A DNA stretch of 64,000 nucleotides from Terebella lapidaria (lineage: Eukaryota > Annelida > Polychaeta > Terebellida > Terebellidae), in the NCBI GenBank assembly GCA_949152475.1, contig OX424563.1, positions 2,701,001 to 2,765,000 of the forward strand, given 5' to 3'. The notes under the pieces were generated by a model, which worked only from the letters and a program-made list of their open reading frames with translations, made no database searches and was not told the DNA's origin. Position numbers and translations under genes: made by a program. Of the stretch, positions 10,001-61,367 are shown piece by piece (within the stretch, counting starts at the first letter, position 1; each line of letters opens with the position of its first letter).

Positions 10001-12327
10001 ATCAGAACCATAGGTGTAGAGTATCAGGATGATAGGTGTAAAGTATCAGCACCATAAGTGTAAAGTGTCAGAACCATAAGTGTAAAGTATCAGAACCATA
10101 AGTATAAAGAATCAGAACCACACGTGTAAAGTATCAGAACCATAAGTGTGAAGTATCAGAACCGTGAGTGTAAAGTATCGGAACCATAAGTGTAAAGTAT
10201 CAGAACCATAAGTGTAAAGTATCAGAACCATAAGTGTAAAGTATCAGAACCATAAGTGTAAAGTATCAGAACCATAGGTGTAAAGTATCAGAACCATAGG
10301 TGTAAAGTATCAGAACCATAAGTGTAAAGTATCAGAGCCATAAGTGTAAAGTATCAGAACCATAAGTGTAAAGTATCAGAACCATAAGTGTAAAGTATCA
10401 GAACCATAAGTGTAAAGTATTAGAACCATAAGTGTAAAGTATCAGAACCATAAGTGTAAAGTATCAGAACCATAAGTGTAAAGTATCAGAACCATAAGTG
10501 TAAAGTATCAGAACCATAAGTGTAAAGTATCAGAACCATAAGTGTAAAGTGTCAGAACCATAAGTGTAAAGTGTCAGAACCATAAGTGTAAAGTATCAGA
10601 ACCATAAGTGTAAAGTGTCAGAACCATAAGTGTAAAGTATCAGAACCATGAGTGTAAAGTATCAGAACCATAAGTGTAAAGTATCAGAACCATAAGTGTA
10701 AAGTATCAGAACCATAAGTGTAAAGTATCAGACCATAAGACTAGTGTAACGTATTAGAACCATAAGTATAAAGTATCAGAACCATAGATGTAAAGTATCA
10801 GAACCATAGGTGTAAAGTGTCAGAACCATAAGTGTAAAGTGTCAGAACCATAAGTGTAAAGTATTAGAACCATAAGTGTAAAGTATCAGAACCATAAGTG
10901 TAAAGTATCAGAACCATAAGTGTAAAGTGTCAGAACCATAAGTGTAAAGTATCAGAACCATGAGTGTAAAGTATCCGAACCATAAGTGTAAAGTATCAGA
11001 ACCATAAGTGTAAAGTATCAGAACCATAAGTGTAAAGTATCAGAACCATAAGTGTAAAGTATCGGAACCATAAGTGTAAAGTATCAGAACCATAAGTGTA
11101 AAGTATCAGAACCATAAGTGTAAAGTATCAGAACCATAAGTGTAAAGTATCAGAACCATAGGTGTAAAGTATCAGAACCATAGGTGTAAAGTATCAGAAC
11201 CATAAGTGTAAAGTATCAGAGCCATAAGTGTAAAGTATCAGAACCATAAGTGTAAAGTATCAGAACCATAAGTGTAAAGTATCAGAACCATAAGTGTAAA
11301 GTATTAGAACCATAAGTGTAAAGTATCAGAACCATAAGTGTAAAGTATCAGAACCATAAGTGTAAAGTATCAGAACCATAAGTGTAAAGTATCAGAACCA
11401 TAAGTGTAAAGTATCAGAACCATAAGTGTAAAGTGTCAGAACCATAAGTGTAAAGTGTCAGAACCATAAGTGTAAAGTATCAGAACCATAAGTGTAAAGT
11501 GTCAGAACCATAAGTGTAAAGTATCAGAACCATGAGTGTAAAGTATCAGAACCATAAGTGTAAAGTATCAGAACCATAAGTGTAAAGTATCAGAACCATA
11601 AGTGTAAAGTATCAGACCATAAGACTAGTGTAACGTATTAGAACCATAAGTATAAAGTATCAGAACCATAGATGTAAAGTATCAGAACCATAGGTGTAAA
11701 GTGTCAGAACCATAAGTGTAAAGTGTCAGAACCATAAGTGTAAAGTATTAGAACCATAAGTGTAAAGTATCAGAACCATAAGTGTAAAGTATCAGAACCA
11801 TAAGTGTAAAGTGTCAGAACCATAAGTGTAAAGTATCAGAACCATGAGTGTAAAGTATCCGAACCATAAGTGTAAAGTATCAGAACCATAAGTGTAAAGT
11901 ATCAGAACCATAAGTGTAAAGTATCAGAACCATAAGTGTAACGTATTAGAACCATAAGTGTAAAGTATCAGAACCATAGGTGTAAAGTATCAGAACCATA
12001 GGTGTAAAGTATCAGAACCATAAGTGTAAAGTGTCAGAACCATAGGTGTAAAGTATCAGAACCATAAGTGTAAAGTATCAGAACCATAAGTGTAACGTAT
12101 TAGAACAATAAGTGTAAAGTATCAGAACCATAGGTGTAAAGTATCAGAACCATAGGTGTAAAGTATCAGAACCATAAGTGTAAAGTATCAGAACCATAAG
12201 TGTAAAGTGTCAGAACTGTGAAGATCTCATGATGCAGAGTTCTGAGTAATCTGTTGAGGAAGGCATAATAAATATGAATGTTGAAATTTGTATAAATTGG
12301 ATGAACTAAGCTAAATTTGGTATAATA

Positions 12328-32238: not shown

Positions 32239-33192
32239 TACGGAAGCCCAGAACGGCCAGCTAGTATTTTTCTAGAGTTTGAATTTGTCTAGTTATTTTT
32301 TTCGAAATCCTGAGAAATATTTTCAAGATTTCGACTTTTTGAATTTTCGTTTTTTTTACTTTTCGTTTTTTCGAATTTTCGTTTTTTCGACTTTTCGACT
32401 TTTTGATTTTTCGAATTTTCGTTTTTTCGACTTTTCGTTTTTTCGATATTTTGACTTTTCGAATTTTCGACTTTTTGAATTTTCGTTTTTTCGACTTTTT
32501 TGATTTTTCGAATTTTCGTTTTTTTGAATTTTCGTTTTCTCGAATTTTCGTTTTTTCGACTTTTTGATTTTTCGTTTTTTCGAATCTAATGGATTATAGG
32601 TGATCTCTGCAGGGTTATGAGCATAATCTGATTGTGACCATGATTAATTAATTGAATATATTAGTAGAAAATATCGCAAATAACACAGACATTTCTTAGT
32701 CATAGCTAGGATACCCTATTGAAGGCTATCACATTTTCTTGGAAAAAGGTGTGTGTTGGGGATCCAAGGGGCCATTGTATACATGTCCGTAGACTTGGTT
32801 ATTGAATGTACATGTACTCACATAGACATGATTGCAATAGTCGAAAAGTCGAAAAATCGAAAAAACGAAAAGTAAAAAAAACGAAAAATCAAAAAGTCGA
32901 AAAAACGAAAGTTCAAAAAGTCGAAAAAACGAAAATTCAAAAAGTCGAAAATTCGAAAAGTCAAAATATCGAAAAAACGAAAAGTCAAAAAAACGAAAAT
33001 TCGAAAAGTCAAAAAGTCGAAAAAACGAAAATTCGAAAAAACGAAAAGTCAAAAAGTCGAAAAAACGAAAAGTAAAAAAAACGAAAATTCAAAAAGTCGA
33101 AATCTTGAAAATATTTCTCAGGATTTCGAAAAAAATAACTAGACAAACTCAAACTCTAGAAAAATGCTAGCTGGCCGTTCTGGGCTTCCGTA
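32239..33192. mobile_element. Foldback element with TTTTCG-rich minisatellite arms and perfect 6-bp TSD
   Basis: CACTTC occurs at 32233-32238 and 33193-33198. The ends are TACGGAAGCCCAGAACGGCC in inverted orientation. Each arm is about 350 bp and is largely made of short TTTTCG / GACTTTTTGA / TTTTTTCGA words (inverse in the right arm), around a ~250-bp unique centre (about 32591-32837). The long Phe-rich and Lys-rich open frames here are by-products of the repeat. Confidence 0.9.
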
Positions 33193-40964: not shown

Positions 40965-41034
40965 GTACACTGTATATTTCAGATAGATCTACTGTACACC
41001 AGAGCCGTCTACTAGACCTCAGTCCTGTCCTCAG

Positions 41035-41340
41035 TGACCGGCGTGAAGTTAGCTACTTGTTACTAGTTCCTTATTCAAATCGAATAAGTAACCAGGAGCT
41101 GGCTACTTATTCAGTCTGGCTACTTATTCAGACATAATTTCCTGATGAATCAAGACTTGAGTGGCACTGCTGAATGTATCACCATTCGACCTGGTACAAT
41201 ATTTTTGGTATATTTAGATCTGCTTATCATTACCCCCCCCCCCCCCCTCCCTCACCCAACCCCCTGCTATGCCCCACGGAGGGTTGTGTAGCTGGTGATG
41301 CCTGTTAGCTTTAGTGTATCAGGACCCAACGCTGGTTCAA
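41035..41340 (+). repeat. Left terminal inverted repeat of the 19-kb element
   Basis: The unique (non-satellite) terminal segment mirrors 59815-60173. It includes a short internal repeat around TGGCTACTTATTCAG (two copies) and a C-rich tract at about 41234-41252. The right copy carries an extra ~60-bp stretch next to its G tract that the left lacks. Confidence 0.85.
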
Positions 41341-43468
41341 AGCTGGCCATTTGTCCATTTTAACATAACTTTTTTGATATTCTAATTCTTGAGCCACCTT
41401 AAATCCTATACTAGTTCGAAGATACATATTAGATATATCAATCAGCATTAGTCCAAAACTGGCTCAGGATTCTATTCTCGAGGTATGACCCATTGAAATA
41501 AAAACTTAAGGAAGTTCAACTTTACGTATTTTCTGACAAAATCCTAATCCTTGAGCCACTCTAACTAATATATTACTTTGAAGCAACATATTAGAAGTAT
41601 CAATCAGCATTAGTTCAAGACTGGCGCAAGATTTCATTTCCGAGATATGACCCATTGAAATGAAAACTTAGCAAAATTCACTTTTTGGGTATTTTGACCA
41701 ACTTTACATATTTTCTGACAAAATCCTAATCCTTGAGCCACCCTAACTAATATATTTCTTTGAAGCAACATATTAGAAGTATCAATCAGCATTAGTTTAA
41801 GACTGGCTCAAGATTTCGTTTCCGAGATATGACGCATTGAAATAAAAACTTAGCGAAATTCACTTTTTGGGTATTTTGACCAACTTTACATATTTTCTGA
41901 CAAAATCCTAATCCTTGAGCCACCCTAACTAATATATTTCTTTGAAGCAACATATTAGAAGTATCAATCAGCATTAGTTCAAGACTGGCTCAAGATTTCG
42001 TTTCCGAGATATGACGCATTGAAATAAAAACTTAGCAAAATTCACTTTTTGGGTATTTTGACCAACTTTACATATTTTCTGACAAAATCCTAATCCTTGA
42101 GCCACCCTAACTAATATATTTCTTTGAAGCAACATATTAGAAGTATCAATCGGCATTAGTTCAAGACTGGCTCAAGATTTCGTTTCCGAGATATGACGCA
42201 TTGAAATAAAAACTTAGCAAAATTCACTTTTTGGGTATTTTGACCAACTTTACATATTTTCTGACAAAATTCTAATCCTTGAGCCACCCTAACTAATATA
42301 TTTCTTTCAAGCAACATATTAGAAGTATCAATCAGCATTAGTTCAAGACTGGCTCAAGATTTCGTTTCCGAGATATGACGCATTGAATTAAAAACTTAGC
42401 AAAAATCACTTTTTGGGTATTTTGACCAACTTTACATGTTTTCTGACAAAATACTAATCCTTGAGCCACCCTAACTAATATATTTCTTTGAAGCAACATA
42501 TTAGAAGTATCAATCAGCATCAGTTCAAGACTGGCTCAAGATTTCGTTTCCGAGATATGACGCATTGAAATAAAAACTTAGCAAAATTCACTTTTTGGGT
42601 ATTTTGACCAAATTTACATATTTTCTGACAAAATCCTAATCCTTGAGCCACCCTAACTAATATATTTCTTTGAAGCAACATATTAGAAGTATCAATCAGC
42701 ATTAGTTTAAGACTGGCTCAAGATTTCGTTTCCGAGATATGACGCATTGAAATAAAAACTTGGTAAAATTCACTTTTTGGGTATTTTGACCAACTTTACA
42801 TATTTTCTGACAAAATCCTAATCCTTGAGCCACCCTAACTAATATATTTCTTTGAAGCAACATATTAGAAGTATCAATCAGCATTAGTTCAAGACTGGCT
42901 CAAGATTTCGTTTCCGAGATATGACGAATTGAAATAAAAAGTTAGCAAACTTCACTTTTTGGGTATTTTGACCAACTTTACATATTTTCTGACAAAATCC
43001 CAATCCTTGAGCCACCCTAACTAATATATTTCTTTGAAGCAACATATTAGAAGTATCAATCAGCATTAGTTCAAGACTGGCTCAAGATTTCGTTTCCGAG
43101 ATATGACGCATTGAAATAAAAACTTAGCAAAATTCACTTTTTGGGTATTTTGACCAACTTTACATATTTTCTGACAAAATCCTAATCCTTGAGCCACCCT
43201 AACTAATATATTTCTTTGAAGCAACATATCAGAAGTATCAATCAGCATTAGTTCAAGACTGGCTCAAGATTTCGTTTCCGAGATATGACGCATTGAAATC
43301 AAAACTTAGCAAAATTCACTTTTTGGGTATTTTGACCAACTTTACATATTCTCTGACAAAATCCTAATCCTTGAGCCACCCTAAGTAATATATTTCTTTG
43401 AAGCAACATATTAGAAGTGTCAGCCAGCATTAGTTCAAGACTGGCTCAAGATTTCGTTTCCGAGATAT
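41341..43468 (-). repeat. 182-bp satellite, left block
   Basis: About 11-12 monomers. The typical monomer holds CTCAAGATTTCGTTTCCGAG, ATATGACGCATTGAAATAAA, TTTTGGGTATTTTGACCAAC, TCCTAATCCTTGAGCCACCC and TATCAATCAGCATTAGTTCA. The first two monomers are more diverged. The block stops at ATAT (43465-43468), where a transposon is inserted, and resumes in register at 49232. Confidence 0.95.
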
Positions 43469-43485
43469 CGACGGGTGAAAACCAG

Positions 43486-44005
43486 AAGGTCGTAAGCGCC
43501 ATTTTCACAATTTTACAAGAGCGTCATTTTTCATCCTGTAGAATTAGTTGTTGCGATCCTTGAAATTTCTTCTGCCACATGCTTTGTAGTAGGGATTGTT
43601 GGTGTCATTTCACTTATTTCATTCACCATAGCTATTATTTTTATTTAATTATCAAAGGAAATGTGACTTACGATGTTCTGGCGTCACGTCTAAACAAGGC
43701 ATATCTATGCGAACTCCTCGCTTTCAAGCATGAACAACGCAAATGGTATTTACGAGGTTCTGGCTCGTCACTATTCCGCAAAGACCTAACACTGACGAAA
43801 CGCCAGAAGGTCGTAAGTGTTTTTCGCGAGGCCACAACTCCGTTCTATTTCAAAATACAACAATGACACGAGTTCATGGCGCAATACGTGGATAGTGGAT
43901 CATACCCGGTAAACGAAATTAAAATTGGAGCAATGTAAATGGGTCAAATCGATAAAACATCGTAACCGCCACACGAGTTCGCCAGAACATCGTAAGTGCC
44001 AGTGG
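43486..44005. repeat. Left subterminal motif cluster
   Basis: Copies of the CCAGAAGGTCGTAAGCGCC motif lie at about 43490, 43670 (inverse, CTTACGATGTTCTGGCGTC), 43748 (inverse), 43800 and 43980. Such clusters often bind transposase; that role is inferred. Confidence 0.65.
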
Positions 44006-47000
44006 CTGTGAAAGAACGTCAGCCCAGAAAAAACATTTTACTGTATCTTTTGGCATTGTTTATCCCGAATAGTGAGCGTGTTATACCTCGAATGATGACC
44101 AATGTATTTATACTTTGTATTATTATGAAGCCTTCATCATCATGACAATAACGTGATAGAATACCAAAGCAAAGTGCTGTGATTCAGGCTATGAAGCCCA
44201 CATGAACCTTTTACTGGATAAGGAATGAAGTTTTGCGCTCTCTCGCGGGCATTTTCCCGGGCAATTTTTCGGTGTTCTCATGAAAGATGCCACTGTTTTT
44301 GTGCGCCATACAAACGGCACATAATTTTTCCCGACTCATCTAACTTATTTCCGGCATTTGCTGGTGTTATTTTGAATTTTGATGAAAATTCATAATCTCA
44401 GGTACGTTATATCATACTTCGTGTCTGACATTACCGCGTTTAATTTTATTGAAATCCAGCAAATATTTGACTCATTACAGTACGGTCAACCATTTCCTCT
44501 TGGATAACACCCTACAAATTGGCACCGAATCTACTGTACAGGCATCTGAGAAACAAGTACCCAGGCGGGTGTGTCGTGTTTCAGGTACTAGTAACCATGG
44601 TAACTAGAAGTATTAGATGGATTTTGTGAGGTGATGGCCTTATGCCTATGGTAAATAAAAAAAGTCAAGTTCAAGCAAAAGGTCCAAATCGAAAAAAAAA
44701 TGCAATAATTTTTTTTCTGAATAAGACCTTGTTCTGAGATTTGTCTTCTGAATAAGACTTGTGTACTTTCCTGCGTGTCCGATGGTCGTACGACCAAAAC
44801 CCCCGATTATCCCGAGGTCGAAAAAAAATTTTCAGGGGTGTCTTGATTTTACGGTTTCATATTGCGCAATATTCGGTACCATATTATGGGGCCAAATTTC
44901 AATGAACGCAGTTCCACTCAGTAACCACTGTCCTGACCCCTCCTTCCATCCCAACTTTTTAGCCGTAAACACTTTTGAATTATTAATATTTCTTGGGAGG
45001 TCGATTTTGGGGGAGGTTCAAATTATGTCCCTGAAAATACTGGATAGAGAATGCTCACTGACAACTAAACACCAAGAAATATCCACATTTTATTTCTCAT
45101 GTTTGTTCTTTTTCTTTCTTATCTTTCAATCTTGCCAGGAGTAATTTTAACATGACATTTTGATATACATGGATATACAGGGAATGAATATTGACTGACA
45201 GTGTAAGACACTGGTGATATCCTAAGGATATCACAGCGACATCAAAAATGTGACGTCGTGGCTCTTGGGTGTGAGATAGTCATATTTATTGTGGGCGAAC
45301 TTAAATAATGTAAAATTGATCACTATCATGATGAAGTTCATCATTTCAAAGTGATATAACAGTGTTTCTTTTTTGTGTTTACCATGCGTGTGTTTGCAAT
45401 TAAATTGCCGTATATTGGTCCTAATAGTAGCACGGCGAGCCAAAGCAAGATCTCCCACAGCAGCGCGTGCAAAAATAAGGTCAAAATTTAGGTACAAAAT
45501 GAGACAAACACTGAATAATATACGCATTGCCTTTAATTCCCCCTTTTTTTTTATTAAAAATGTCATAATATGTTGATTGGAATTCCCCTAGACTTTATTA
45601 GAAAGATGACGTGAAATATAAGGTTACGAAAAGCGAGTATTTTTGGGGGAGAAGATGGGGCGTGCTTCTATTAGGGTGCGTGCCACTATTGGGAGCAATA
45701 TGGCATATATCCTAGTATGCCTACACTGATAAGTTATTCTTTCTCGTAGAATTAGGCCTAACTAGAAAGTTGTCATGGTGAATATTGTCAAATCTTGAAG
45801 CAGGCAAGTTTCAGTGGTGTAATCTTTAATTATAATTCCAATGCCTAAGGACTCCTTAACATACATACCAGAAGTGCACAGCCTACAAATATTCCTTTGT
45901 TTTTGGAGGGTGGGTGGTTGGGCTTACGGGGGTTACATTGGTTTTGGATTTCTTAACGTTCTCTGGTCGTCATGCTGTTGTAAGTAATATCAGCTGCTAG
46001 TTGAAGAGAGATAACGCTCGGTTGCGTCATGCCACAGTGTCGGAATAGTTAGAGCGCTCGCGTTCGAATACAACTTAGGTATTTTATTCCCGGCTACATG
46101 CTGTTCAATATTTATTTTCTAGATCTATGCTGTTTTTGTTTTGCAATATCCGATAAATTTATTATAATTAATATTTGGTGAATTTATCCAAGATATGTTT
46201 TTACAGTGTGTTTTGATATACAAATCTACATGTAGGCCCACATAAAAATATGACTTTAGTTGATGTTTTAGTTGTTTTATGAGTGGGCCTAGGCCTATGG
46301 CATGCGAAAGGGGCCACCGCCAAGTGTCATAGTCTCAAATACTAAGAGTAGTCCTTTGGCATACAATCGCCAACTGCTGAAACTCATTCAAACTATTTTC
46401 AACTTCTTACGCTGCAAATTGCTCCGGAGATTTTGTTATTTTCTAATACCGGACATTGTTCAGGAGATATGTTAGGGCCTAAATGTAAAAATATGCGTAA
46501 ATTAATTCATAGAAGGTAGGCCTATGCGTCGAGCTTGGCTCATGGCCGATTATATTTATTAGTGTTGTAAATAATTATAATTGTAAATAATTGAATAATT
46601 ATAATCTTACAGTATTACTTAGAATAATATTTATTGTAACTTTGTAACCTGAACCGATCGATCGTATACTACAGTCGCCGAACGATTGCTTTATACATAG
46701 GCCTGCAGCAGCGGATTTTTTTAAAACAATCATATTATATACAATATTGTATAATGTTGAATTATACAGTATTCATATCATGATATGCATATTGAGAAGA
46801 TTGCCGAGTGTACATCGGCACGGCACATGGCCAGTCCAACGTTCCATATATGGAACGCAATAGGCTTACGACCCTACCTGTAGGCTGTAGGCCGGGCCTA
46901 CTTGTAAACCTACATGTGAGGTTTTGGAATTCTTTATGCAGCAGTGGCCAAGAATTTTCCACAGGACATAACAATCGGTATGGCTAGATCTACTGCTCAA

Positions 47001-47350
47001 GGCCCTTGAGCGGGTCCCAGACCCTTGCCTATCATTTTGCACCCCCTCCCCTCCCCCACCCTCTCAAATTTCTTGATCAGCCCTACCGAATGGATTTATA
47101 TAGGCCGACTATATGTAGGCCTAATAAAAGTGTCGACAACAATGGTTAATGAGCAGAGGAAGGGTGCACGTCACCTTTTATTGCTCATTGACTTGACAGA
47201 CCAGACGCGAATCAACTATAGATGAATGGTGCATTTTCTCTCCGATTCTAAATGCATTATCAATGAACAAATCACATTATGCAACATATACGAACCAAGA
47301 TGAAAGGCACATCGAGTCCGCGAGAAGGAAAAAAAAGTAGCCCAAAGGCA
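44006..47350. other. Interior of the 5.76-kb transposon without recognised gene
   Basis: The longest open frames (for example 44761-45144, + strand) have no recognisable domain and lie in AT-rich DNA. The one item of note is an 18-bp palindrome containing CCATATATGG near 46838-46855. Confidence 0.45.
46838..46855. promoter_or_regulatory. CArG-box-like 18-bp palindrome
   Basis: CGTTCCATATATGGAACG is a perfect palindrome whose core CCATATATGG is the consensus SRF-binding CArG box. It sits inside a transposon, not near a recognised promoter, so function is doubtful. Confidence 0.25.
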
Positions 47351-48017
47351 GACAGGTTACCGGACAATATGTTTCATACATTAAATATTAGTCATTTTCC
47401 CCGTGACTTTGAAAATAAGGTCTCTGGTCAAATTCAAGGTCATCAAAATATTCAGCATACATAATTCCTTACAAATGCACACTTGATTCCTATGCTGAAA
47501 CGTCGGTAATAAGCAAAAATATTAGCCATCTTGTGCTATGACCTTGAAAATGAGTTCAAATGTCAAATTCAAGGTCATGACAATATCCAGCATATATCAT
47601 TTCCTATATCATGTATATGTGCACAACTGATACCTAAGCGGTACACAGTCGATGATAAGTCGATAATAAGCGAAATATTAGCCATTTTGTGCTCTATCTT
47701 CAAAAATAGGGTCGAATGTCAAGTTCAAGGTCATCAGAATATTCACCGTATATAATTTTCTGTATGTCCACAATTGGTTCCCACGCTATATAGTCGATAA
47801 GAAGCAAGATATTGGCCATTTTGTCCCATGTGCTTGAAAATGAGATCAAAGGTCGAATTCTATATGTCCAAAATGGACTTCTAGGCTGTAAAGTCAATAA
47901 GAAGCGAGATATGAACCATTTTGTCATGTAACCTTGAAAATGAGGTCAAAGGTCAAATATTCAGCATATATATCCTTTATGTTCATAATTGATTTCTAAG
48001 CTGTAAAATCGGTAATA

Positions 48018-48123
48018 ATGTATCAATCTATTACCACCGAGACAGTCAGATTTTGATGATGCTAATAACAAACGTAGAATACAACATTTTTCAATGGATA
48101 CAAAGCACGACCAAATAATTGAT
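48018..48123 (+). repeat. ~105-bp direct repeat, left copy
   Basis: GTATCAATCTATTACCACCG to about 48123 matches 48576-48681 with around ten differences. The pair flanks a ~450-bp segment that contains the SINE. Confidence 0.8.
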
Positions 48124-48134
48124 CTGAAAGGATA

Positions 48135-48478
48135 AGACGTAACCGAGTGGTTACGTGCGAGCACTTAGTCGCTCAATTTGAACTAACAGCTATCGCCGGC
48201 GTGGGTTCGATCCTACGTCGGGCCGCATGTGCGGTAATTGTAAGGGGATTTTTTCCCTGTCCTCACAACTGGCAGTGTGCCCGTGACTCAGATATCACGT
48301 AAAATGGCGGTCCCATCTCTAAAAAATGTTGTAAAGGGATGTAAAAGACCCCTCTGAGAACGACATGTACCCTGGCAGTGACCACTCTCAGAGGACTAAA
48401 TTCCAAACTGTGAAGCGCTTTGAGAATGTGTGTAACGTTGATAAAGCGCTATATAAGAAAAGATTATTATTAGTAGTA
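48135..48478 (+). mobile_element. tRNA-derived SINE
   Basis: The head has pol III boxes: A box-like TAACCGAGTGGTTA (about 48139-48152) and an exact B box GGTTCGATCC (48204-48213), spaced as in Leu/Ser-type tRNAs with a long variable arm. The body is unrelated to tRNA, and the tail GTGAAGCGCTTTGAGAA .. AAAGCGCTATATAAGAAAAG ends in (ATT/AGT)n. The AAGCGCTATATAA tail motif is shared by several metazoan SINE families. It is not a functional tRNA: the acceptor ends do not pair. Confidence 0.8.
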
Positions 48479-48575
48479 CCTAATCACAAGCCAAAAGGCT
48501 ACTGAGTTGATGGTATCCTCGGGGACAGTTTCAACGTCCACCAGCAGTGACACCGGCTCAGTGGTATAAATGTAA

Positions 48576-48681
48576 GTATCAATCTATTACCACCGATACA
48601 GTCAGATTTTGATGATACCAATAACAAACGTAAAATACAACATTTTGCAATAAAAGCAAAGCCCGACCAAATAGTTTATCC
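48576..48681 (+). repeat. ~105-bp direct repeat, right copy
   Basis: Partner of 48018-48123. A TRIM-like pair of terminal repeats or a plain tandem duplication later split by the SINE are both possible; I see no primer-binding site. Confidence 0.8.
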
Positions 48682-48917
48682 AAAAACATAGCTAGATACG
48701 ATTTAGCCATTTTTTCCTGTGGCCTTAAAAATTGGGTCAATGGTAAACTTCAAGGTCATGACAATATTCAGAATATATCCTTATCCTTTCCTATTTGTTC
48801 ACATATATTTTATATGTTTTAGGTAACTTATTTTTTTGTTTGCTCACATATATTTTATATGTTTTAGGTAACCTATAACCCTTCCACATGTCGGGTAAAA
48901 GTACTCGAATGTCAAGC

Positions 48918-49220
48918 ACGTGTTGGCGGTTACGATGTTCTGGCTTTGACGCAAGTGCACTTACGAGGTTCTGGCGTCACCATTGTGAATCACACACGGG
49001 CGCTTGCGACCTTCTGGCAAAAATCGCTGGTGCTTACGACCTTTTGGCGAACACGTTTTGTGGAATTTGGCGCTTACGACTTTTTACAAAAAATGATTTT
49101 CCGGTTTTGGTTTATTGAGAGCATGATCAGTCATCGATTGGATGATGACAAAGAAGCTCCTGGCTTGATTTGACTGATTAACTCATTTTCACCAAAAATG
49201 GCGCTTACGACCTTCTGGTT
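48918..49220. repeat. Right subterminal motif cluster
   Basis: The same motif is near 48927 (GGTTACGATGTTCTGGC), 48959 (CTTACGAGGTTCTGGCGTC), 49004 (GCGACCTTCTGGC), 49032 (CTTACGACCTTTTGGCG), 49071 (diverged) and 49201 (GCGCTTACGACCTTCTGG). Here nearly all copies point the same way. Confidence 0.65.
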
Positions 49221-49231
49221 TTTACCCGTCG

Positions 49232-52200
49232 ATATGACGCATTGAAATAAAAACTTGGTAAAATTCACTTTTTGGGTATTTTGACCAACTTTACATATTT
49301 TCTGACAAAATCCTAATCCTTGAGCCACCCTAACTAATATATTTCTTTGAAGCAACATATTAGAAGTATCAATCAGCATTAGTTTAAGACTGGCTCAAGA
49401 TTTCGTTTCCGAGATATGACGCATTGAAATAAAAACTTGGTAAAATTCACTTTTTGGGTATTTTGACCAACTTTACATATTTTCTGACAAAATCCTAATC
49501 CTTGAGCCACCCTAACTAATATATTTCTTTGAAGCAACATATTAGAAGTATCAATCAGCATTAGTTCAAGACTGGCTCAAGATTTCGTTTCCGAGATATG
49601 ACGAATTGAAATAAAAAGTTAGCAAAATTCACTTTTTGGGTATTTTGACCAACTTTACATATTTTCTGACAAAATCCTAATCCTTGAGCCACCCTAACTA
49701 ATATATTTCTTTGAAGCAACATATTAGAAGTATCAATCAGCATTAGTTCAAGACTGGCTCAAGATTTCGTTTCCGAGATATGACGCATTGAAATAAAAAC
49801 TTAGCAAAATTCACTTTTTGGGTATTTTGACCAACTTTACATATTTTCTGACAAAATCCTAATCCTTGAGCCACCCTAACTAATATATTTCTTTGAAGCA
49901 ACATATCAGAAGTATCAATCAGCATTAGTTCAAGACTGGGTCAAGATTTCGTTTCCGAGATATGACGCATTGAAATCAAAACTTAGCAAAATTCATTTTT
50001 TGGGTATTTTGACCAACTTTACATATTTTCTGACAAAATCCTAATCCTTGAGCCACCCTAACTAATATATTTCTTTGAAGCAACATATTAGAAGTATCAA
50101 TTAGCCCTTGTCCCAGGCTGGCTCAGGATTTCATTTTCAAACTATGATGTACTGAAATAAGCATTCTTCATGAAATAGATTTTTCGTGTATCTGTCCAAT
50201 CTAACGTAACTTTTCAAATATTCTAATCCTTGAGCCACCTCAATTCCTATATTATTTCGAAGATACATATTAGATGTATCAATCAGCATTAATCCAAGAC
50301 TGGCTCAAGATTCTATTCTCGAGGTATGACCCATTGAAATAAAAATTTAAGGAAAATCTTTCTTTTTTTTCCAATTCGACCAAATTTACGTATTTTCTGA
50401 CAAAATCCTAATCCTTGAGCCACCCTAACTAAAATATTTCTTTGAAGCAACATATTAGAAGTATCAATCAGCATTAGTTCAAGACTGGCTCAAGATTTCG
50501 TTTCCGAGATATGACGCATTGAAATAAAAACTTAGCAAAATTCACTTCTTGGGTATTTTGACCAACTTTACATATTTTCTGACAAAATCCTAATCCTTGA
50601 GCCACCCTAAGTAATATATTTCTTTGAAGCAACATATTAGAAGTATCAGCCAGCATTAGTTCAAGACTGGCTCAAGATTTCGTTTCCGAGATATGACGCA
50701 TTGAAATAAAAACTTAGTAAAATTCACTTTTTGGGTATTTTGACCAACTTTACATATTTTCTGACAAAATCCTAATCCTTGAGCCACCCTAACTAATATA
50801 TTTCTTTGAAGCAACATATTAGAAGTATCAATCAGCATTAGTTTAAGACTGGCTCAAGATTTCGTTTCCGAGATATGACGCATTGAAATAAAAACTTAGC
50901 AAAATTCACTTTTTGGGTATTTTGACCAACTTTACATATTTTCTGACAAAATCCTAATCCTTGAGCCACCCTAAGTAATATATTTCTTTGAAGCAACATA
51001 TTAGAAGTGTCAGCCAGCATTAGTTCAAGACTGGCTCAAGATTTCGTTTCCGAGATATGACGCATTGAAATAAAAACTTAGTAAAATTCACTTTTTGGGT
51101 ATTTTGACCAACTTTACATATTTTCTGACAAAATCCTAATCCTTGAGCCACCCTAACTAATATATTTCTTTGAAGCAACATATTAGAAGTATCAATCAGC
51201 ATTAGTTTAAGACTGGCTCAAGATTTCGTTTCCGAGATATGACGCATTGAAATAAAAACTTGGTAAAATTCACTTTTTGGGTATTTTGACCAACTTTACA
51301 TATTTTCTGACAAAATCCTAATCCTTGAGCCACCCTAACTAATATATTTCTTTGAAGCAACATATTAGAAGTATCAATCACCATTAGTTCAAGACTGGCT
51401 CAAGATTTCGTTTCCGAGATATGACGAATTGAAATAAAAAGTTAGCAAAATTCACTTTTTGGGTATTTTGACCAACTTTACATATTTTCTGACAAAATCC
51501 CAATCCTTGAGCCACCCTAACTAATATATTTCTTTGAAGCAACATATTAGAAGTATCAATCAGCATTAGTTCAAGACTGGCTCAAGATTTCGTTTCCGAG
51601 ATATGACGCATTGAAATAAAAACTTAGCAAAATTCACTTTTTGGGTATTTTGACCAACTTTACATATTTTCTGACAAAATCCTAATCCTTGAGCCACCCT
51701 AACTAATATATTTCTTTGAAGCAACATATCAGAAGTATCAATCAGCATTAGTTCAAGACTGGGTCAAGATTTCGTTTCCGAGATATGACGCATTGAAATC
51801 AAAACTTAGCAAAATTCATTTTTTGGGTATTTTGACCAACTTTACATATTTTCTGACAAAATCCTAATCCTTGAGCCACCCTAACTAATATATTTCTTTG
51901 AAGCAACATATTAGAAGTATCAATTAGCCCTTGTCCCAGGCTGGCTCAGGATTTCATTTTCAAACTATGATGTACTGAAATAAGCATTCTTCATGAAATA
52001 GATTTTTCGTGTATTTGTCCAATCTAAAGTAACTTTTCAAATATTCTAATCCTTGAGCCACCTCAATTCCTATATTATTTCGAAGATACATATTAGATGT
52101 ATCAATCAGCATTAATCCAAGACTGGCTCAAGATTCTATTCTCGAGGTATGACCCATTGAAATAAAAATTTAAGGAAAATCTTTTTTTTTCCAATTCGAC

Positions 52201-52560
52201 CAATTTTACGTATTTTCTGACAAAATCCTAATCCTTGAGCCACCCTAACTAATATATTTCTTTGAAGCAACATATTAGAAGTATCAATCAGCATTAGTTC
52301 AAGACTGGCTCAAGATTTCGTTCCCGAGATATGACGCATTGAAATCAAAACTTAGCAAAAATCACTTTGGGTATTTTGACCAATTTCACATATTTTCTGA
52401 CAAAATCCTAATCCTTGAGCCACCCTAAGTAATATATTTCTTTGAAGCAACATATTAGAAGTATCAATCAGCTGGCCAGCTGAGCCAGTCTTAGTTCAAG
52501 ACTGGCTCAAGATTTCGTTTCCGAGATATGACCCATTGAAATAAAAACTTAGCAAAATTC
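49232..52560 (-). repeat. 182-bp satellite, middle block (same direction as left block)
   Basis: About 18 monomers continuing the left block. Two-monomer alternation (364 bp) shows at about 50474-51202. A diverged three-monomer stretch (with CCCTTGTCCCAGGCTGGCTC) occurs at about 50100 and again at about 51925, ten monomers apart, so larger blocks were also copied. The last monomer is truncated near 52560, after a CAGCTGGCCAGCTG palindrome (52469-52482). Confidence 0.95.
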
Positions 52561-52735
52561 ACAAGCAAGTGGAAACAGACCCAAGCAAGTGGAAACACCC
52601 TTCCCAACCCCAGTAACCCTAGTAACAAAGAACAAACATTTCTTACCGAAGTGATGCAACTGACAAGAAAAAATATTGAATGGTCTCTTGCTCGTGTCAG
52701 CTGCGTTCGTTCATTCAAAATAATACGGGATGATG
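52561..52735. other. Unique junction between opposing satellite arms
   Basis: About 175 bp without satellite sequence, beginning with two copies of CAAGCAAGTGGAAACA. It forms the loop of the giant inverted repeat. Confidence 0.7.
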
Positions 52736-55700
52736 CTTCAAAAAAGGTATATTAGTTAGGATGACTGAGGTGTCAGGATTCTGTGAAAAAAAAAGATTTG
52801 AAATAAATCGTGTTTACTTGTATGGGTCATGTTTCACGAATAAAATCTAAAGCCAGTCTTTGGATTTAGGTTGACATATATACAAATACACCCAAAAAAA
52901 TCCATTTCGTCAAGAATGCAGACTATTTCAGTGCATAATATCTCGGAGAATAAAATGCTGAGAGCCTGCCTTGGAGTAGGGCTAATTCATAATCTGATAT
53001 GTTGCTTCGAACCAGTATAGTACTTAGGTTGGCTCAAGCATTGGGATTTTTTTTCTAAAAATACTTAAAGTTGATCAGAATACTCAAAAAGGGATTTTCC
53101 CTGGGTTTTCGATTCAATGGGTTATATCTCGAGAATACGATCTTGAGCCAGTTTGGACTAATGCTGGTTGATATATCCAATATAAGTATTCAAAATAGAA
53201 AAGCACATGAGGTGGCTCATGGATTAGGATTTTGTCAGAAATTACGTAAAATTGGTCAAAATCCAATATAAAATGAATTTCCCTAAGTTTCTGTTTCAAT
53301 GGGTCATATCTTGGAAATGAAATCTTGAGCCAGTCTTGGACAAGTGCTGATTGATACATCTAATATTTATCTTCGAAATAGTATAGGATTCGAGGTGGCT
53401 CAAGGATTAGAATATTTGAAGTTATGTTAAAATGGACAAATACACGAAAAATCTATTTCGTGACGAATGCTTAGTTCAGTACATCATAATTTGTGAATGG
53501 AATCCTGAGCCAGCCTGGGACAAGGGCTAATTGATACTTCTAATATGTTGGTTTAAGGAAGTGCATTAGTTAGGGTGGCTCAAGGAATAGGATTTTGTCA
53601 GAAAATATGTAAAGTTGGTCAACATACCCAAAAAGTGAATTTTCCTAAGTTTTCATTTCAATGGGTCATATCTCGGAAACGAAATCTTGAGCCAGTCTTG
53701 AACTGATGCTGATTGATACTTCTAATATGTTGCTTCAAAGAAATATATTAGTTAGGGTGGCTCAAGGATTAGTATTTTGTCAGAAAATATGTAAAATTGG
53801 TCAAAATACCCAAAAAGTGAATTTCGCCAAGTTTTTATTTCAATGCGTCATATCTCGGAAACTAAATCTTGAGCCAGTCTTGAACTAATGCTGATTGATA
53901 CTTCTAATATGTTGCTTCAAAGAAATATATTAGTTAGGGTGCCTCAAGGATTAGGATTTTGTCAGAAAATATGTAAAGTTGGTCAAAATACCCAAAAAGT
54001 GAATTTTGCTAAGTTTTTATTTCAATGCGTCATATCTCGGAAACGAAATCTTGAGCCAGTCTTGAACTAATGCTGATTGATACTTCTAATATGTTGCTTC
54101 AAAGAAATATATTAGTTAGGGTGGCTCAAGGATTAGGATTTTGTCAGAAAATACGTAAAGTTGGTCGAATTGGAAAAAAAAAGATTTTCCTTAAATTTTT
54201 ATTTCAATGGGTCATACCTCGAGAATAGAATCTTGAGCCAGTCTTGGACTAATGCTGATTGATACATCTAATATGTATCTTCGAAATAATATAGGAATTG
54301 AGGTGGCTCAAGGATTAGAATATTTGAAAAGTTACGTTAGAATGGACAAATACACGAAAAATCTATTTCATGAAGAATGCTTATTTCAGTACATCATAGT
54401 TTGAAAATGAAATCCTGAGCCAGCCTGGGACAAGGGCTAATTGATACTTCTAATATGTTGGTTTAAGGTAGTACATTAGTTAGGGTGGCTCAAGGATTAG
54501 GATTTTGTCAGAAAATATGTATAGTTGGTCAAAATACCCAAAAAGTTAATTTTGCTAAGTTTTTATTTCAATGCGTCATATCTCGGAAACGAAGTCTTGA
54601 GCCAGTCTTGAACTAATGCCGATTGATACTTCTAATATGTTGCTTCAAAGAAATATATTAGTTAGGGTGGCTCAAGGATTAGTATTTTGTCAGAAAATAT
54701 GTAAAGTTGGTCAAAATACCCCAAAAGTGAATTTTGCTAAGTTTTCATTTCAATGCGTCATATCTCGGAAACGAAATCTTGAGCCAGTCTTGAACTAATG
54801 CTGATTGATACTTCTAATATGTTGCTTCAAAGAAATATATTAGTTAGGGTGCCTCAAGGATTAGGATTTTGTCAGAAAATATGTAAAGTTGGTCAAAATA
54901 CCCAAAAAGTGAATTTTGCTAAGTTTTTATTTCAATGCGTCATATCTCGGAAACGAAATCTTGAGCCAGTCTTGAACTAATGCTGATTGATACTTCTAAT
55001 ATGTTGCTTCAAAGAAATATATTAGTTAGGGTGGCTCAAGGATTAGGATTTTGTCAGAAAATACGTAAAGTTGGTCGAATTGGAAAAAAAAAGATTTTCC
55101 TTAAATTTTTATTTCAATGGGTCATACCTCGAGAATAGAATCTTGAGCCAGTCTTGGACTAATGCTGATTGATACATCTAATATGTATCTTCGAAATAAT
55201 ATAGGAATTGAGGTGGCTCAAGGATTAGAATATTTGAAAAGTTACGTTAGAATGGACAAATACACGAAAAATCTATTTCATGAAGAATGCTTATTTCAGT
55301 ACATCATAGTTTGAAAATGAAATCCTGAGCCAGCCTGGGACAAGGGCTAATTGATACTTCTAATATGTTGGTTTAAGGTAGTACATTAGTTAGGGTGGCT
55401 CAAGGATTAGGATTTTGTCAGAAAATATGTATAGTTGGTCAAAATACCCAAAAAGTTAATTTTGCTAAGTTTTTATTTCAATGCGTCATATCTCGGAAAC
55501 GAAGTCTTGAGCCAGTCTTGAACTAATGCCGATTGATACTTCTAATATGTTGCTTCAAAGAAATATATTAGTTAGGGTGGCTCAAGGATTAGTATTTTGT
55601 CAGAAAATATGTAAAGTTGGTCAAAATACCCCAAAAGTGAATTTTGCTAAGTTTTCATTTCAATGCGTCATATCTCGGAAACGAAATCTTGAGCCAGTCT

Positions 55701-58700
55701 TGAACTAATGCTGATTGATACTTCTAATATGTTGCTTCAAAGAAATATATTAGTTAGGGTGGCTCAAGGATTAGGATTTTGTCAGAAAATATGTAAAGTT
55801 GGTCAAAATACCCAAAAAGTTAATTTTGCTAAGTTTTTATTTCAATGCGTCATATCTCGGAAACGAAATCTTGAGCCAGTCTTGAACTAATGCTGATTGA
55901 TACTTCTAATATGTTGCTTCAAAGAAATATATTAGTTAGAGTGGCTCAAGGATTAGGATTTTGTCAGAAAATATGTAAATTTGGTCAAAATACCCAAAAA
56001 GTGATTTTATTAAGTTTTTATTTCAATACGTCATATCTCGGAAACGAAATCTTGACCCAGTCTTGAACTAATGCTGATTGATACTTCTAATATGTTGCTT
56101 CAAAGAAATATATTACTTAGGGTGGCTCAAGGATCAGGATTTTGTCAGAAAATATGTAAAGTTGGTCAAAATACCCAAAAAGTGAATTTTGCTAAGTTTT
56201 TATTTCAATGCGTCATATCTCGGAAACAAATTCTTGAGCCAGTCTTGAACTAATGCTGATTGATACTTCTAATATGTTGCTTCAAAGAAATATATTAGTT
56301 AGGGTGGCTCAAGGATTAGGATTTTGTCAGAAAATACGTAAAGTTGGTCGAATTGGAAAAAAAAAAGATTTTCCTTAAATTTTTATTTCAATGGGTCATA
56401 CCTCGAGAATAGAATCTTGAGCCAGTCTTGGACTAATGCTGATTGATACATCTAATATGTATCTTCGAAATAATATAGGAATTGAGGTGGCTCAAAGATT
56501 AGAATATTTGAAAAGTTACGTTAGAATGGACAAATACACGAAAAATCTATTTCATGAAGAATGCTTATTTCAGTACATCATAGTTTGAAAATGAAATCCT
56601 GATCCAGCCTGGGACAAGGGCTAATTGATACTTCTAATATGTTGGTTTAAGGTAGTACATTTATTTAGTTAGGGTGGCTCAAGGATTAGGATTTTGTCAG
56701 AAAATATGTATAGTTGGTCAAAATACCCAAAAAGTTAATTTTGCTAAGTTTTTATTTCAATGCGTCATATCTCGGAAACGAAGTCTTGAGCCAGTCTTGA
56801 ACTAATGCCGATTGATACTTCTAATATGTTGCTTCAAAGAAATATATTAGTTAGGGTGGCTCAAGGATTAGTATTTTGTCAGAAAATATGTAAAGTTGGT
56901 CAAAATACCCCAAAAGTGAATTTTGCTAAGTTTTCATTTCAATGCGTCATATCTCGGAAACGAAATCTTGAGCCAGTCTTGAACTAATGCTGATTGATAC
57001 TTCTAATATGTTGCTTCAAAGAAATATATTAGTTAGGGTGGCTCAAGGATTAGGATTTTGTCAGAAAATATGTAAAGTTGGTCAAAATACCCAAAAAGTG
57101 AATTTTGCTAAGTTTTTATTTCAATGCGTCATATCTCGGAAACGAAATCTTGAGCCAGTCTTGAACTAATGCTGATTGATACTTCTAATATGTTGCTTCA
57201 AAGAAATATATTAGTTAGGGTGGCTCAAGGATTAGGATTTTGTCAGAAAATATGTAAAGTTGGTCAAAATACCCAAAAAGTGATTTTATTAAGTTTTTAT
57301 TTCAATGCGTCATATCTCAGAAACGAAATCTTCAGCCAGTCTTGAACTAATGCTGATTGATACTTCTAATATGTTGCTTCAAAGAAATATATTAGTTAGG
57401 GTGGCTCAAGGATTAGGATTTTGTCAGAAAATATGTAAATTGGTCAAAATACCCAAAAAGTGATTTTTGCTAAGTTTTTATTTCAATGCGTTATATCTCG
57501 GAAACGAAATCTTGAGCCAGTCTTGAACTAATGCTGATTGATACTTCTAATATGTTGCTTCAAAGAAATATATTAGTTAGGATGGCTCAAGGATTAGGAT
57601 TTTGTCAGAAAATATGTGAAATTGGTCAAAATACCCAAAAAGTGATTTTTGCTAAGTTTTTATTTCAATGCATCATATCTCGCAAACGAAATCTTGAGCC
57701 AGTCTTGAACTAATGCTGATTGATACTTCTAATATGTTGCTTCAAAGAAATATATTAGTTAGGGTGGCTCAAAGATTAGGATTTTGTCAGAAAATATGTA
57801 AAGTTGGTCAAAATACCCAAAAAGTGATTTTATTAAGTTTTTATTTCAATGCATCATATCTCGGAAACGAAATCTTGAGCCAGTCTTGAACTAATGCTGA
57901 TTGATACTTCTAATATGTTGCTTCAAAGAAATATATTACTTAGGGTGGCTCAAGGATTAGGATTTTGTCAGAAAATATGTAAAGTTGGTCAAAATACCCA
58001 AAAAGTGAATTTTGCTAAGTTTTTATTTCAATGCGTCATATCTCGGAAACAAAATCTTGAGCCAGTCTTGAACTAATGCTGATTGATACTTCTAATATGT
58101 TGCTTCAAAGAAATATATTAGTTAGGGTGGCTCAAGGATTAGGATTTTGTCAGAAAATATGTAAAGTTGGTCAAAATACCCAAAAAGTGAATTTTGCTAA
58201 GTTTTTATTTCAATGCGCCATATCTCGGAAACGAAATCTTGAGCCAGTCTTGAACTAATGCTGGTTGATACCTCTAATATGTTGCTTCAAAGAAATATAT
58301 TACCTAGGGTGGATCAAGGATTAGGATTTTGTCAGAAAATATGTAAAGTTGGTCAAAATACCCAAAAAGTGAATTTCGCTAAGTTTTTATTTCAATGCGT
58401 CATATCTCGGAAACGAAATCTTGAGCCAGTCTTGAACTAATGCTGATTGATACTTCTAATATGTTGCTTCAAAGAAATATATTAGTTAGGGTGGCTCAAG
58501 GATTAGGATTTTGTCAGAAAATATGTAAAGTTGGTCAAAATACCCAAAAAGTGATTTTATTAAGTTTTTATTTCAATGCGTCATATCTCGGAAACGAAAT
58601 CTTGACCCAGTCTTGAACTAATGCTGATTGATACTTCTAATATGTTGCTTCAAAGAAATATATTACTTAGGGTGGCTCAAGGATTAGGATTTTGTCAGAA

Positions 58701-59814
58701 AATATGTAAAGTTGGTCAAAATACCCAAAAAGTGAATTTTGCTAAGTTTTTATTTCAATGCGTCATATCTCGGAATCAAAATCTTGAGCCAGTCTTGAAC
58801 TAATGCTGATTGATACTTCTAATATGTTGCTTCAAAGAAATATATTAGTTAGGGTGGCTCAAGGATTAGGATTTTGTCAGAAAATACGTAAAATTGGTCG
58901 AATTGGAAAAAAAAAGATTTTCCTTAAATTTTTATTTCAATGGGTCATACCTCGAGAATAGAATCTTGAGCCAGTCTTGGACTAATGCTGATTGATACAT
59001 CTAATATGTATCTTCGAAATAATATAGGAATTGAGGTGGCTCAAAGATTAGAATATTTGAAAAGTTACGTTAGAATGGACAAATACACGAAAAATTTATT
59101 TCATGAAGAATGCTTATTTCAGTACATCATAGTTTGAAAATGAAATACTGAGCCAGCCTGGGACAAGGGCTAATTGATACTTCTAATATGTTGGTTTAAG
59201 GTAGTACATTAGTTAGGGTGGCTCAAGGATTAGGATTTTGTCAGAAAATATGTAAAGTTGGTCAAAATACCCAAAAAGTGAATTTTGCTAAGTTTTCATT
59301 TCAATGGGTCATATCTCGGAAATGAAATCTTGAGCCAGTCTTGAACTAATGCTGATTGATACTTCTAATATGTTGCTTCAAAGTAATATATTAGTTAGGG
59401 TGGCTCAAGGATTAGGATTTTGTCAGAAAATACGTAAAGTTGGTCGATTTCGAAAAAAAAAAACGAACTACCTTAAGTTTTCATTTCAATGGGTCATATC
59501 TCGGAAATGAAATCTTGAGCCAGTCTTGAACTAATGCTGATTGATACTTCTAATATGTTGCTTCAAAGTAATATATTAGTTAGGGTGGCTCAAGGATTAG
59601 GATTTTGTCAGAAAATACGTAAAGTTGGTCGATTTCGAAAAAAAAAAACGAACTACCTTAAGTTTTTATTTCAATGGGTCATACCTCGAGAATAGAATCC
59701 TGAGCCAGTCTTGGACTAATGCTGATTGATATATCTAATATGTATCTTCGAACTAGTATAGGATTTAAGGTGGCTCAAGAATTAGAATATCAAAAAAGTT
59801 ATGTTAAAATGGAC
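52736..59814 (+). repeat. 182-bp satellite, right block (opposite direction)
   Basis: About 39 monomers. Near the loop, monomers are strongly diverged (52736-53640); the rest are close to consensus. A five-monomer higher-order unit of 910 bp repeats nearly exactly (about 54070-54979 and 54980-55889). It includes the variant monomers with GGTCGAATTGG-A(n) and TACACGAAAAATCTATTTCA, and reappears in part at about 56290 and 58830. Confidence 0.95.
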
Positions 59815-60173
59815 AAATGGCCAGCTTTGAACCAGCGTTGGGTCCTGATACACTAAAGCTAACAGGCATCACCAGCCACACAACCCTCCGTGGGGCATAG
59901 CAGGGGGTGGGGTGAGGGGGAGGGGGGGGGGGGTGGTGGTACCACACCTACAATAAAGCAAAAAAGTATATTTCGCGTAATAATAAGCAGATCTAGATAT
60001 ACCAAAATTATTTTACCAGGTCGAATGGTGATACATTCAGCAGTGCCACTCAAGTCTTGATTCATCATGAAATTATGTCTGAATAAGTAGCCATACTGAA
60101 TAAGTAGCCAGCTCCTGGTTACTTATTCGATTTGAATAAGGAACTAGTAACAAGTAGCTAACTTCACGCCGGT
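59815..60173 (-). repeat. Right terminal inverted repeat of the 19-kb element
   Basis: Inverse of 41035-41340, with a G-rich tract at about 59906-59938 opposite the C tract of the left end. It ends CTTCACGCCGGT, followed by TCCTCAG. Confidence 0.85.
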
Positions 60174-60237
60174 TCCTCAGCGCTGCTTAATTTTCTTTCA
60201 TAAATGATCTTTAGCCTTGCAACAACTACCGATTGAC

Positions 60238-60966
60238 TAGACAAAGTACGTCTTTCGGGAATACCTGCTGAGGACCGCAGGTCCGAAAGACGGAAGTTCC
60301 ATGCGTGTTGAAAAGTGTACTTCGATGCGAACGAAATCTATTCGCTGTTTGAGAGTTCAAAACTTGGTGAAAACTAACGAAAATTGCAGCTAAACTTACC
60401 AAAATGGCAAGCATAATCATTTCAAAGTTGTTATCTGTGTTAAAATCGTTGATTCATTGTGTTTTACAAACATTTCCAATCGTTTGAACTAAACCGGCAA
60501 AATCAGGCAAGTTTCTCGCTTCGATTCAATGGCGGTTTCACCATTGCCTCGATAAACTCCGTGACACAGAAATACGGTGTAGAATAAAATCGAAACGGAA
60601 AATGTGTTGCGTAATGCTAAACAACATGAACGCATATACTAAGCCAGTTTCGATTTGATTCAACATCGTATAAAACCGCCATTGAATCGAAGCGAGAAAG
60701 TTGCCAGATTTTGCATCTTTGGTTCAAACGATTCAAGATGTTTGTAAAACATAATAAATCAGCGATTTTAGTGCAGATAACAACTTGTAAATGATTATTC
60801 TAGCCATTTTGGTAGCTGTAATTTTAGTTAGTTTTCACCATGTTTTAAGGTGTCAAACGGCGAATAGATTTCATTCGCATCGAGGTACACTTTTTATAAT
60901 GCATGGCACTTCGTCTTTCGGACCTGCGGTCCTCAGCAGGTATCCCCGAAAGACGTACTTTGTCTA
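60238..60966. mobile_element. 729-bp foldback element with perfect 9-bp TSD
   Basis: CCGATTGAC lies at 60229-60237 and 60967-60975. The two halves are inverted copies through most of their length, from TAGACAAAGTACGTCTTTCG, through CCTGCTGAGGACCGCAGGTC, to GATTCAATGGCGGTTT near the middle, leaving a loop of about 60-100 bp. A 9-bp duplication fits Mutator-like elements. The same target CCGATTGAC is unoccupied at 61322-61330. Confidence 0.88.
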
Positions 60967-61258: not shown

Positions 61259-61367
61259 CTTCCTGTCCTCAGGGCTGCTTAATTTTTCTTTCATAACTGA
61301 TTTTTAGCTTTGCAACAACTACCGATTGACAGCTTCATGTATATAGCCTAAAATTATAATGATATAG
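61259..61367 (+). repeat. Partial duplicate of the flank of the two large insertions (double empty site)
   Basis: TCCTGTCCTCAG joins directly to GGCTGCTTAATTTTTCTTTC, and CAACTACCGATTGAC joins directly to AGCTTCATGTATATAGCC. In the other copy these joins are split by the 19-kb element and by the 729-bp foldback element respectively. The two copies otherwise differ at scattered positions. Confidence 0.85.

Follow-up and report, generated by a model that had tools for sequence, protein, structure and literature searches.

The closest described systems are DNA transposons with tandem repeats in or near their ends. Rehavkus elements, which are known from arthropods and annelids and serve as an outgroup of the Mutator-like elements, are described with a PHD finger, 9-bp target-site duplications and ends 26-400 bp in length; they also have a minisatellite, which that account places 'in Cterm' and 'prior to the 3' TIR' (PMC6446971). 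For Rehavkus-1_TC of Tribolium castaneum, 164-bp satellite units are reported in the inverted termini (PMC10218199). Tetris of Drosophila virilis is a foldback element with 8-10-bp duplications and ~220-bp tandem units, which sit between the terminal and the inner domain of each inverted repeat; the cited account gives only three structurally complete copies and reports that no transposase-coding copy was found (PMC4079207). The Tm1 Mutator/Foldback elements of root-knot nematodes are described with 9-bp duplications, composite inverted repeats containing a tandem motif of ~14 bp, and a single transposase-coding type accompanied by non-autonomous relatives; for that transposase the portion of the description cited here names FLYWCH and MULE domains and mentions no PHD finger (PMC3169594). 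Galileo of Drosophila is a foldback element that is grouped with P elements by its transposase, according to its description (PMC3573991).

Among these, Rehavkus-1_TC and Tetris appear to be the nearest precedents for the family of elements reported here, which seems to carry the same plan to an extreme. As in Rehavkus-1_TC, a satellite unit lies in the inverted termini, with 182 bp here against 164 bp there; unlike Rehavkus-1_TC as described, the elements reach 42 kb with more than 50 units per arm, and 14 copies have the form of a coding-free deletion derivative. The foldback build and the long unit arrays are shared with Tetris, whose few complete copies contrast with the 25 elements and one coding copy found here; the long Tetris arrays are portrayed as satellite-like and growing out of the element, whereas here the high-identity satellite listed in our search lies inside the elements. 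Tm1 resembles the family in its duplication length, its composite ends and its single coding type, and differs in the length of its tandem motif, in its transposase domains and, as far as its cited description goes, in the PHD finger that our coding copy carries. What is new is the size of the elements, the length of their satellite arms (about 10 kb at most) and the link between such arms and a coding copy. A search of the open-licence literature found no description of a satellite foldback of such size.

The window (the whole stretch of 64,000 nucleotides analysed here, C9:2701001-2765000 of an assembly with 761,603,190 bp in 438 contigs) contains one such unit, element E21, at 41037-60173 (19,137 bp). 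It is very probably a non-autonomous copy of a giant cut-and-paste foldback DNA transposon, descended from a coding parent similar to element E02 (see below). The unit starts with A-CCGGCGTGAAG and finishes with CTTCACGCCGG-T. Its target-site duplication, TCCTCAGTG on the left (41028-41036) and TCCTCAGCG on the right (60174-60182), is 9 bp long with 8/9 bases equal (one mismatch), and not the 7-bp TCCTCAG that a sequence-only reading of the locus had proposed. The left terminal inverted repeat (TIR; 41037-41340, + strand) is a short variant that is also present in E08, E10 and E15, and the right TIR (59827-60173, - strand) is the long variant, the commoner of the two; they are inverted relative to each other and 84.7% identical across 347 columns, the left being ~40 bp shorter. 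The left arm consists of 182-bp satellite on the + strand, in an outer part (41379-43473, the first unit of which is older, at 80% identity) and an inner part (49231-52562). Between them lies a later insertion of another element (43469-49231, ~5.8 kb), which is not part of the unit and has 37-bp inverted ends (CGACGGGTGAAAACCAGAAGGTCGTAAGCGCC...), sub-terminal CTTACGACCTTCTGG-type repeats and ATAT at either side. The loop (52563-52723, 161 bp) is followed by older satellite units of 75-82% identity at the inner end of the right arm (52730-53471, - strand), and these by the main right-arm satellite, which runs in the opposite direction to that of the left arm (53471-59788, - strand). Satellite accounts for 61.7% of the 19,137 bp, with the 5.8-kb insertion included in the denominator. 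The giant inverted repeat of satellite is thus as claimed from the letters of the window, in its two ends, its arms and their opposed orientation.

A related, unoccupied site had been suggested at 61266. The right flank of the unit does recur there, over 65 columns at 92%, but the left flank matches over 12 bp only, and we rejected a clean empty allele because the site repeats the right flank alone. It appears to be a local copy of that flank, which supports an empty site weakly. A ~0.7-kb palindromic element with ends like AAAGTACGTCTTTCGG... interrupts the right flank at 60238-60966, and the flank resumes beyond it.

Several other features of the window and the assembly are recorded here. 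A second, small foldback lies at 32241-33190. Its inverted ends (GGAAGCCCAGAACGGCCAGCTAG...) are ~95 bp long, and its two arms consist of oppositely directed 16/24/40-bp tandem repeats of TTTTCGAA type. A search for its tip gave 153 places in the genome (77 and 76 per strand at up to 2 mismatches; control 0), often in convergent pairs ~1 kb apart. At 9958-12216 a 22-bp unit, TCAGAACCATAAGTGTAAAGTA, is repeated ~102 times in an array. TGA codons are present in COX1 on contig C438, where AAA, read as lysine, argues against the echinoderm code. A second COX1-like stretch with TGA codons, less similar to the model than the first, is found on a small contig (C417:44633-46450) and appears to be foreign or nuclear mitochondrial DNA.

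Inverted pairs of the terminal repeats, which the sequence-only reading had proposed to look for, are found elsewhere: the 761.6-Mb genome contains 25 elements with convergent ends, the window unit included, with lengths of about 5.6-41.8 kb. Searches with the left and the right end yielded 40 scored matches each, of 58 and 57 candidates respectively. A 24-base tip pattern (up to 3 mismatches) occurs at 75 places, 38 and 37 per strand, against 0 for the reversed control. These sort into 49 places in the 25 convergent pairs (E08 counts one tip place, the first bases of its left end being lost), 2 solo ends (C1:35671758, denoted L059, and C17:18882261) and 24 more divergent places. With a second, more internal pattern we obtained 53 places, the control again giving 0.

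Both limits could be placed in 24 elements, E08 being left out, and these were scored for duplications with identical limits for all. A duplication of 9 or 10 bp with at most one mismatch flanks 21 of the 24, whereas none of 552 mismatched pairings of left and right flanks passed the same test. The duplications are 9 bp long in 17 elements and 10 bp in four; 19 of the 21 are perfect (15 of 9 bp, 4 of 10 bp), and E01 and E21 have 9 bp with one mismatch. E03, E10 and E23 showed no clean duplication under this test. The duplicated words differ among all elements, and a BLAST comparison of the 48 flanks (up to 400 bp) returned 7 short matches of 25-100 bp, four of them within one element and three, of 53-64 bp, linking different elements. 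Since the flanks are mostly unlike and the duplications distinct, the elements represent separate insertions rather than copies of one larger duplicated region. The earlier suggestion that the window unit arrived as one insertion, instead of growing in place, gains support from this family and its duplications, as does the expectation of distinct duplications at other loci.

Degenerate copies were also seen. At L059 a solo end of ~113 bp has its left flank, TGGCTCTGCAC, repeated on the other side; this is perhaps an element cut down to one tip, possibly via failed repair post-excision. Three further loci, L060, L061 and L065 (on C4, C15 and C16), have divergent ends, CCGGTGTGAAGTTAGCT(A/G)CTCGTT, and the satellite units that follow these are divergent too. 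Some 40 bp of flank outside the end are common to L061 and L065, as if an old element end had been incorporated into another repeat. At L063 the first ~100 bp of the end are present at 93-95% and the sequence differs thereafter; a second end was not found nearby. It was from ~2.1-kb pieces only that L062, L063 and the group L060/L061/L065 were considered as further coding relatives.

Eleven elements were read whole (E01-E07, E09, E11, E21 and E23), the remaining 14 of the 25 being known from their ends and matches only. The order is the same in all eleven: end, satellite on the + strand, centre, satellite on the - strand, end. Their satellite share ranges from 46.7 to 91.9% of the length, later insertions included. 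With long TIRs, made mostly of tandem repeats, around a central segment in 11/11 whole-read elements and one duplication length class at independent sites, the family works like a foldback transposon in any case.

The coding copy, E02, lies on C1 and is 41.8 kb long, with a 21-kb centre between the loop segment and a segment of the type found in E05. The centre holds a 1,534-codon frame (L013:1056-5660, minus strand), so the absence of protein noted for the window unit does not extend to the family as a whole; the autonomous relative with the same ends that had been sought has its counterpart in this copy, a coding relative with nearly the same ends and an interrupted gene. The frame contains an acidic repeat with 66-bp units and a PHD finger (PF00628, E 9e-8, residues 711-756; 32.5 bits against a cut-off of 24), for which the nearest solved structure is the PHF2 PHD (E 2.2e-11). 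It probably also holds a DDE region with a putative catalytic role: by eye, and by general motif patterns, we take D1041, D1116 and E1357 to be a candidate DDE triad, with a candidate C-x-x-H at C1163/H1166. This presumed catalytic region matches no transposase family in Pfam, even at E 10. The NCBIfam search gave no significant match, and relatives of the E02 protein in viral_contigs could not be confirmed. A search of the genome with the Pfam MULE model (PF10551) gave 39 matches, E02 not among them.

An LTR element of ~7.7 kb, with 1,647-bp repeats that are 99.8% alike and a gag frame, is located in the E02 centre. LTR sequence makes up the last 48-50 of the 1,534 codons, and the E02 gene would continue in an open stretch of 111 codons past the far LTR repeat; a young LTR element therefore appears to interrupt the gene near its 3' end. 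The E02 protein has 35 matches in the genome in all. Of these, one is E02 itself, 29 fall at query positions 713-769 and belong to the LTR element, another is a short match on C1 (48%), and four lie in one 8-kb region of C11 at 44-61% identity. Three of the four C11 fragments have several stops, and the fragments start downstream of both candidate aspartates. The presumed catalytic part of the protein exists in a single full-length copy in this genome. As this sole full-length gene copy is interrupted by the LTR element, its present activity is doubtful, and, barring another source, we expect the family to be quiet in this individual.

The centres of the other elements connect them to E02. The 161-bp loop is present in 15 of the 25 elements, in 14 of them at full length (a genome search gave 16 matches, one a 53-bp fragment), and 11 of the 14 full-loop elements have a duplication. 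Loop bases 14-161 adjoin the coding centre of E02, and the first 13 bases copy a stretch just downstream and mark a deletion joint. In E09, E11, E21 and E23, the four of 14 loop elements in which the joint itself was read, the junction of satellite and loop lies at an identical base and contains an identical 13-bp filler, in place of which E02 has a sequence of its own. E02 apart, the match to the loop begins at base 1 in all 14 loop elements, which points to one internal-deletion founder for them. From this sequence pattern we take it that one internal deletion, of which the loop would be the scar, founded 14 of the 25 copies, including the window unit. A 2-kb core, 98-100% alike, occupies six elements; it has many relatives of 73-89% identity elsewhere in the genome (40 of 623 candidates scored) and so looks like acquired cargo. 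Four elements (E03, E05, E17 and E19) have neither loop nor core, and a 295-bp segment of E05 is 99.3% identical to the other edge of the E02 centre. Since the E02 centre lies between the loop and the E05 joint, the E02 form is a plausible parent of the deletion forms.

We propose the following model. Each terminal inverted repeat would be composed of a ~305-347-bp outer domain and then a long inward array of the 182-bp satellite, and the parent form, like E02, would have had the order arm, loop segment, centre with transposase-like gene, arm. Internal deletions would have removed the centre. We infer that the E02 protein catalysed the movement of such deletion copies in trans, by acting on their outer ends and leaving 9-10-bp duplications. 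The arms would travel as parts of the element and then grow or shrink via local segmental duplication.

We term the family Rehavkus-like, as it appears to fit every Rehavkus trait tested in a comparison with published descriptions only. The 9-bp duplications (17 elements), the outer domain of 304-347 bp in the window and the PHD finger in E02 correspond to those descriptions, and the 182-bp satellite in both arms corresponds to the minisatellite, though the published wording is not identical. Its superfamily is likely the Rehavkus branch beside the Mutator-like transposons; as no MULE-domain match was obtained, we do not file it as a canonical MULE. The missing Pfam MULE match would also suit a foldback driven by some other transposase group with 8-10-bp duplications, for example a P-type enzyme as in Galileo, in which case the E02 gene would be cargo. 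The foldback build is reported to have arisen in different groups (PMC3169594, PMC4079207), and some centres do hold foreign repeats, such as the 2-kb core with its relatives elsewhere in the genome. We nevertheless consider another driver unlikely, because the PHD finger, the 9-bp duplications and the tandem units in the termini jointly fit the Rehavkus account as published, and because the loop and the E05 joint mark E02 as parent of the deletion forms.

The satellite arms bear on a further question, namely whether the satellite travelled with the Rehavkus-like element or whether a short foldback landed at each site and its arms lengthened there separately later. Arm lengths vary widely from copy to copy, as growth in place would allow. 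Within one element, the two arms align to each other at 98.0% over 3.4 kb in E05 and at 92.4% over 10.0 kb in E02. Among 468 full monomers, the nearest neighbour lies in the same arm in 175 cases (27 expected) and in the opposite arm in 49 (24 expected). The same-arm excess indicates later local duplication in the arms, so some local expansion occurs; with the much smaller excess for the other arm, we rejected the idea that the arms were homogenised chiefly by exchange with each other. Mean monomer identity, however, is nearly equal at all levels (95.9% both for monomers of the same arm and for those in the two arms of one element, 95.6% for those in different elements), which indicates that the satellite variety predates most insertions. 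Arms of 1.7-2.5 kb are moreover colinear between elements at different sites: E11 and E23 have one arm in common over 2,531 bp at 98.4%, and E01 and E07 over 1,688 bp at 99.5%. Separate growth at each site is therefore improbable as the origin of the arms. Of 774 satellite matches in the genome, every one of the ~150 listed, each at least 99% identical, lies inside elements; more divergent relatives also exist outside them. Together with the arm common to E11 and E23, these matches support the earlier idea that the element spreads the satellite.

Helitrons are not known to have inverted ends or to make target-site duplications, and this family has both long TIRs and a duplication. Although Helentron-type elements are reported to carry satellite-like arrays in bivalves (PMC7492417), the presence of long inverted ends at 25 loci, duplications at 21/24 against 0/552 in the control and only three short flank matches between elements make a Helitron/Helentron-like or pearl-type element, plain satellite with chance inverted flanks, or a local mis-assembly hardly credible.

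Divergent copies of the 182-bp unit retain two dyad boxes, CTTGAGCCA and TGGCTCAAG, better than the intervening stretch. In 64 divergent unit pieces, identity is 0.94 at TAATCCTTGAGCC and 0.87 at TGGCTCAAGATTT, against 0.64 at TTTCTTTGAAGCA, figures that are uncorrected for shared descent of the pieces. Six pieces from relatives outside the elements gave 0.85, 0.89 and 0.74 at the same three stretches, which we regard as the same order. Single-strand folding of the unit has a z of -2.3, with 4/200 shuffles equally good. The conserved imperfect dyad may be a binding site. We speculate, quite tentatively, that the satellite has a function in the element instead of being ballast, and that hundreds of putative dyad sites help the transposase or a host protein to unite ends up to 42 kb apart. 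The outer end shows no likeness to the 182-bp unit beyond chance (best E 1.9), which counts against this possibility; a derivation of the satellite from the outer end, as proposed for Tetris, was rejected on the same comparison. If the speculation were true, the satellite would represent the amplified internal binding sites of a transposon, and selection for transposition would make and spread satellite DNA.

It is a long-standing question how satellite arrays get from one chromosome to another. In the proposed Rehavkus-like family, whole kilobase arrays would have moved as transposon arms, and this can be read directly at many sites: the duplications serve as dated scars, the common deletion joint provides a genealogy, and the coding copy points to the likely enzyme. 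The family also tests the upper size and the palindromy of cut-and-paste elements, because a foldback palindrome of 5-40 kb should be unstable.
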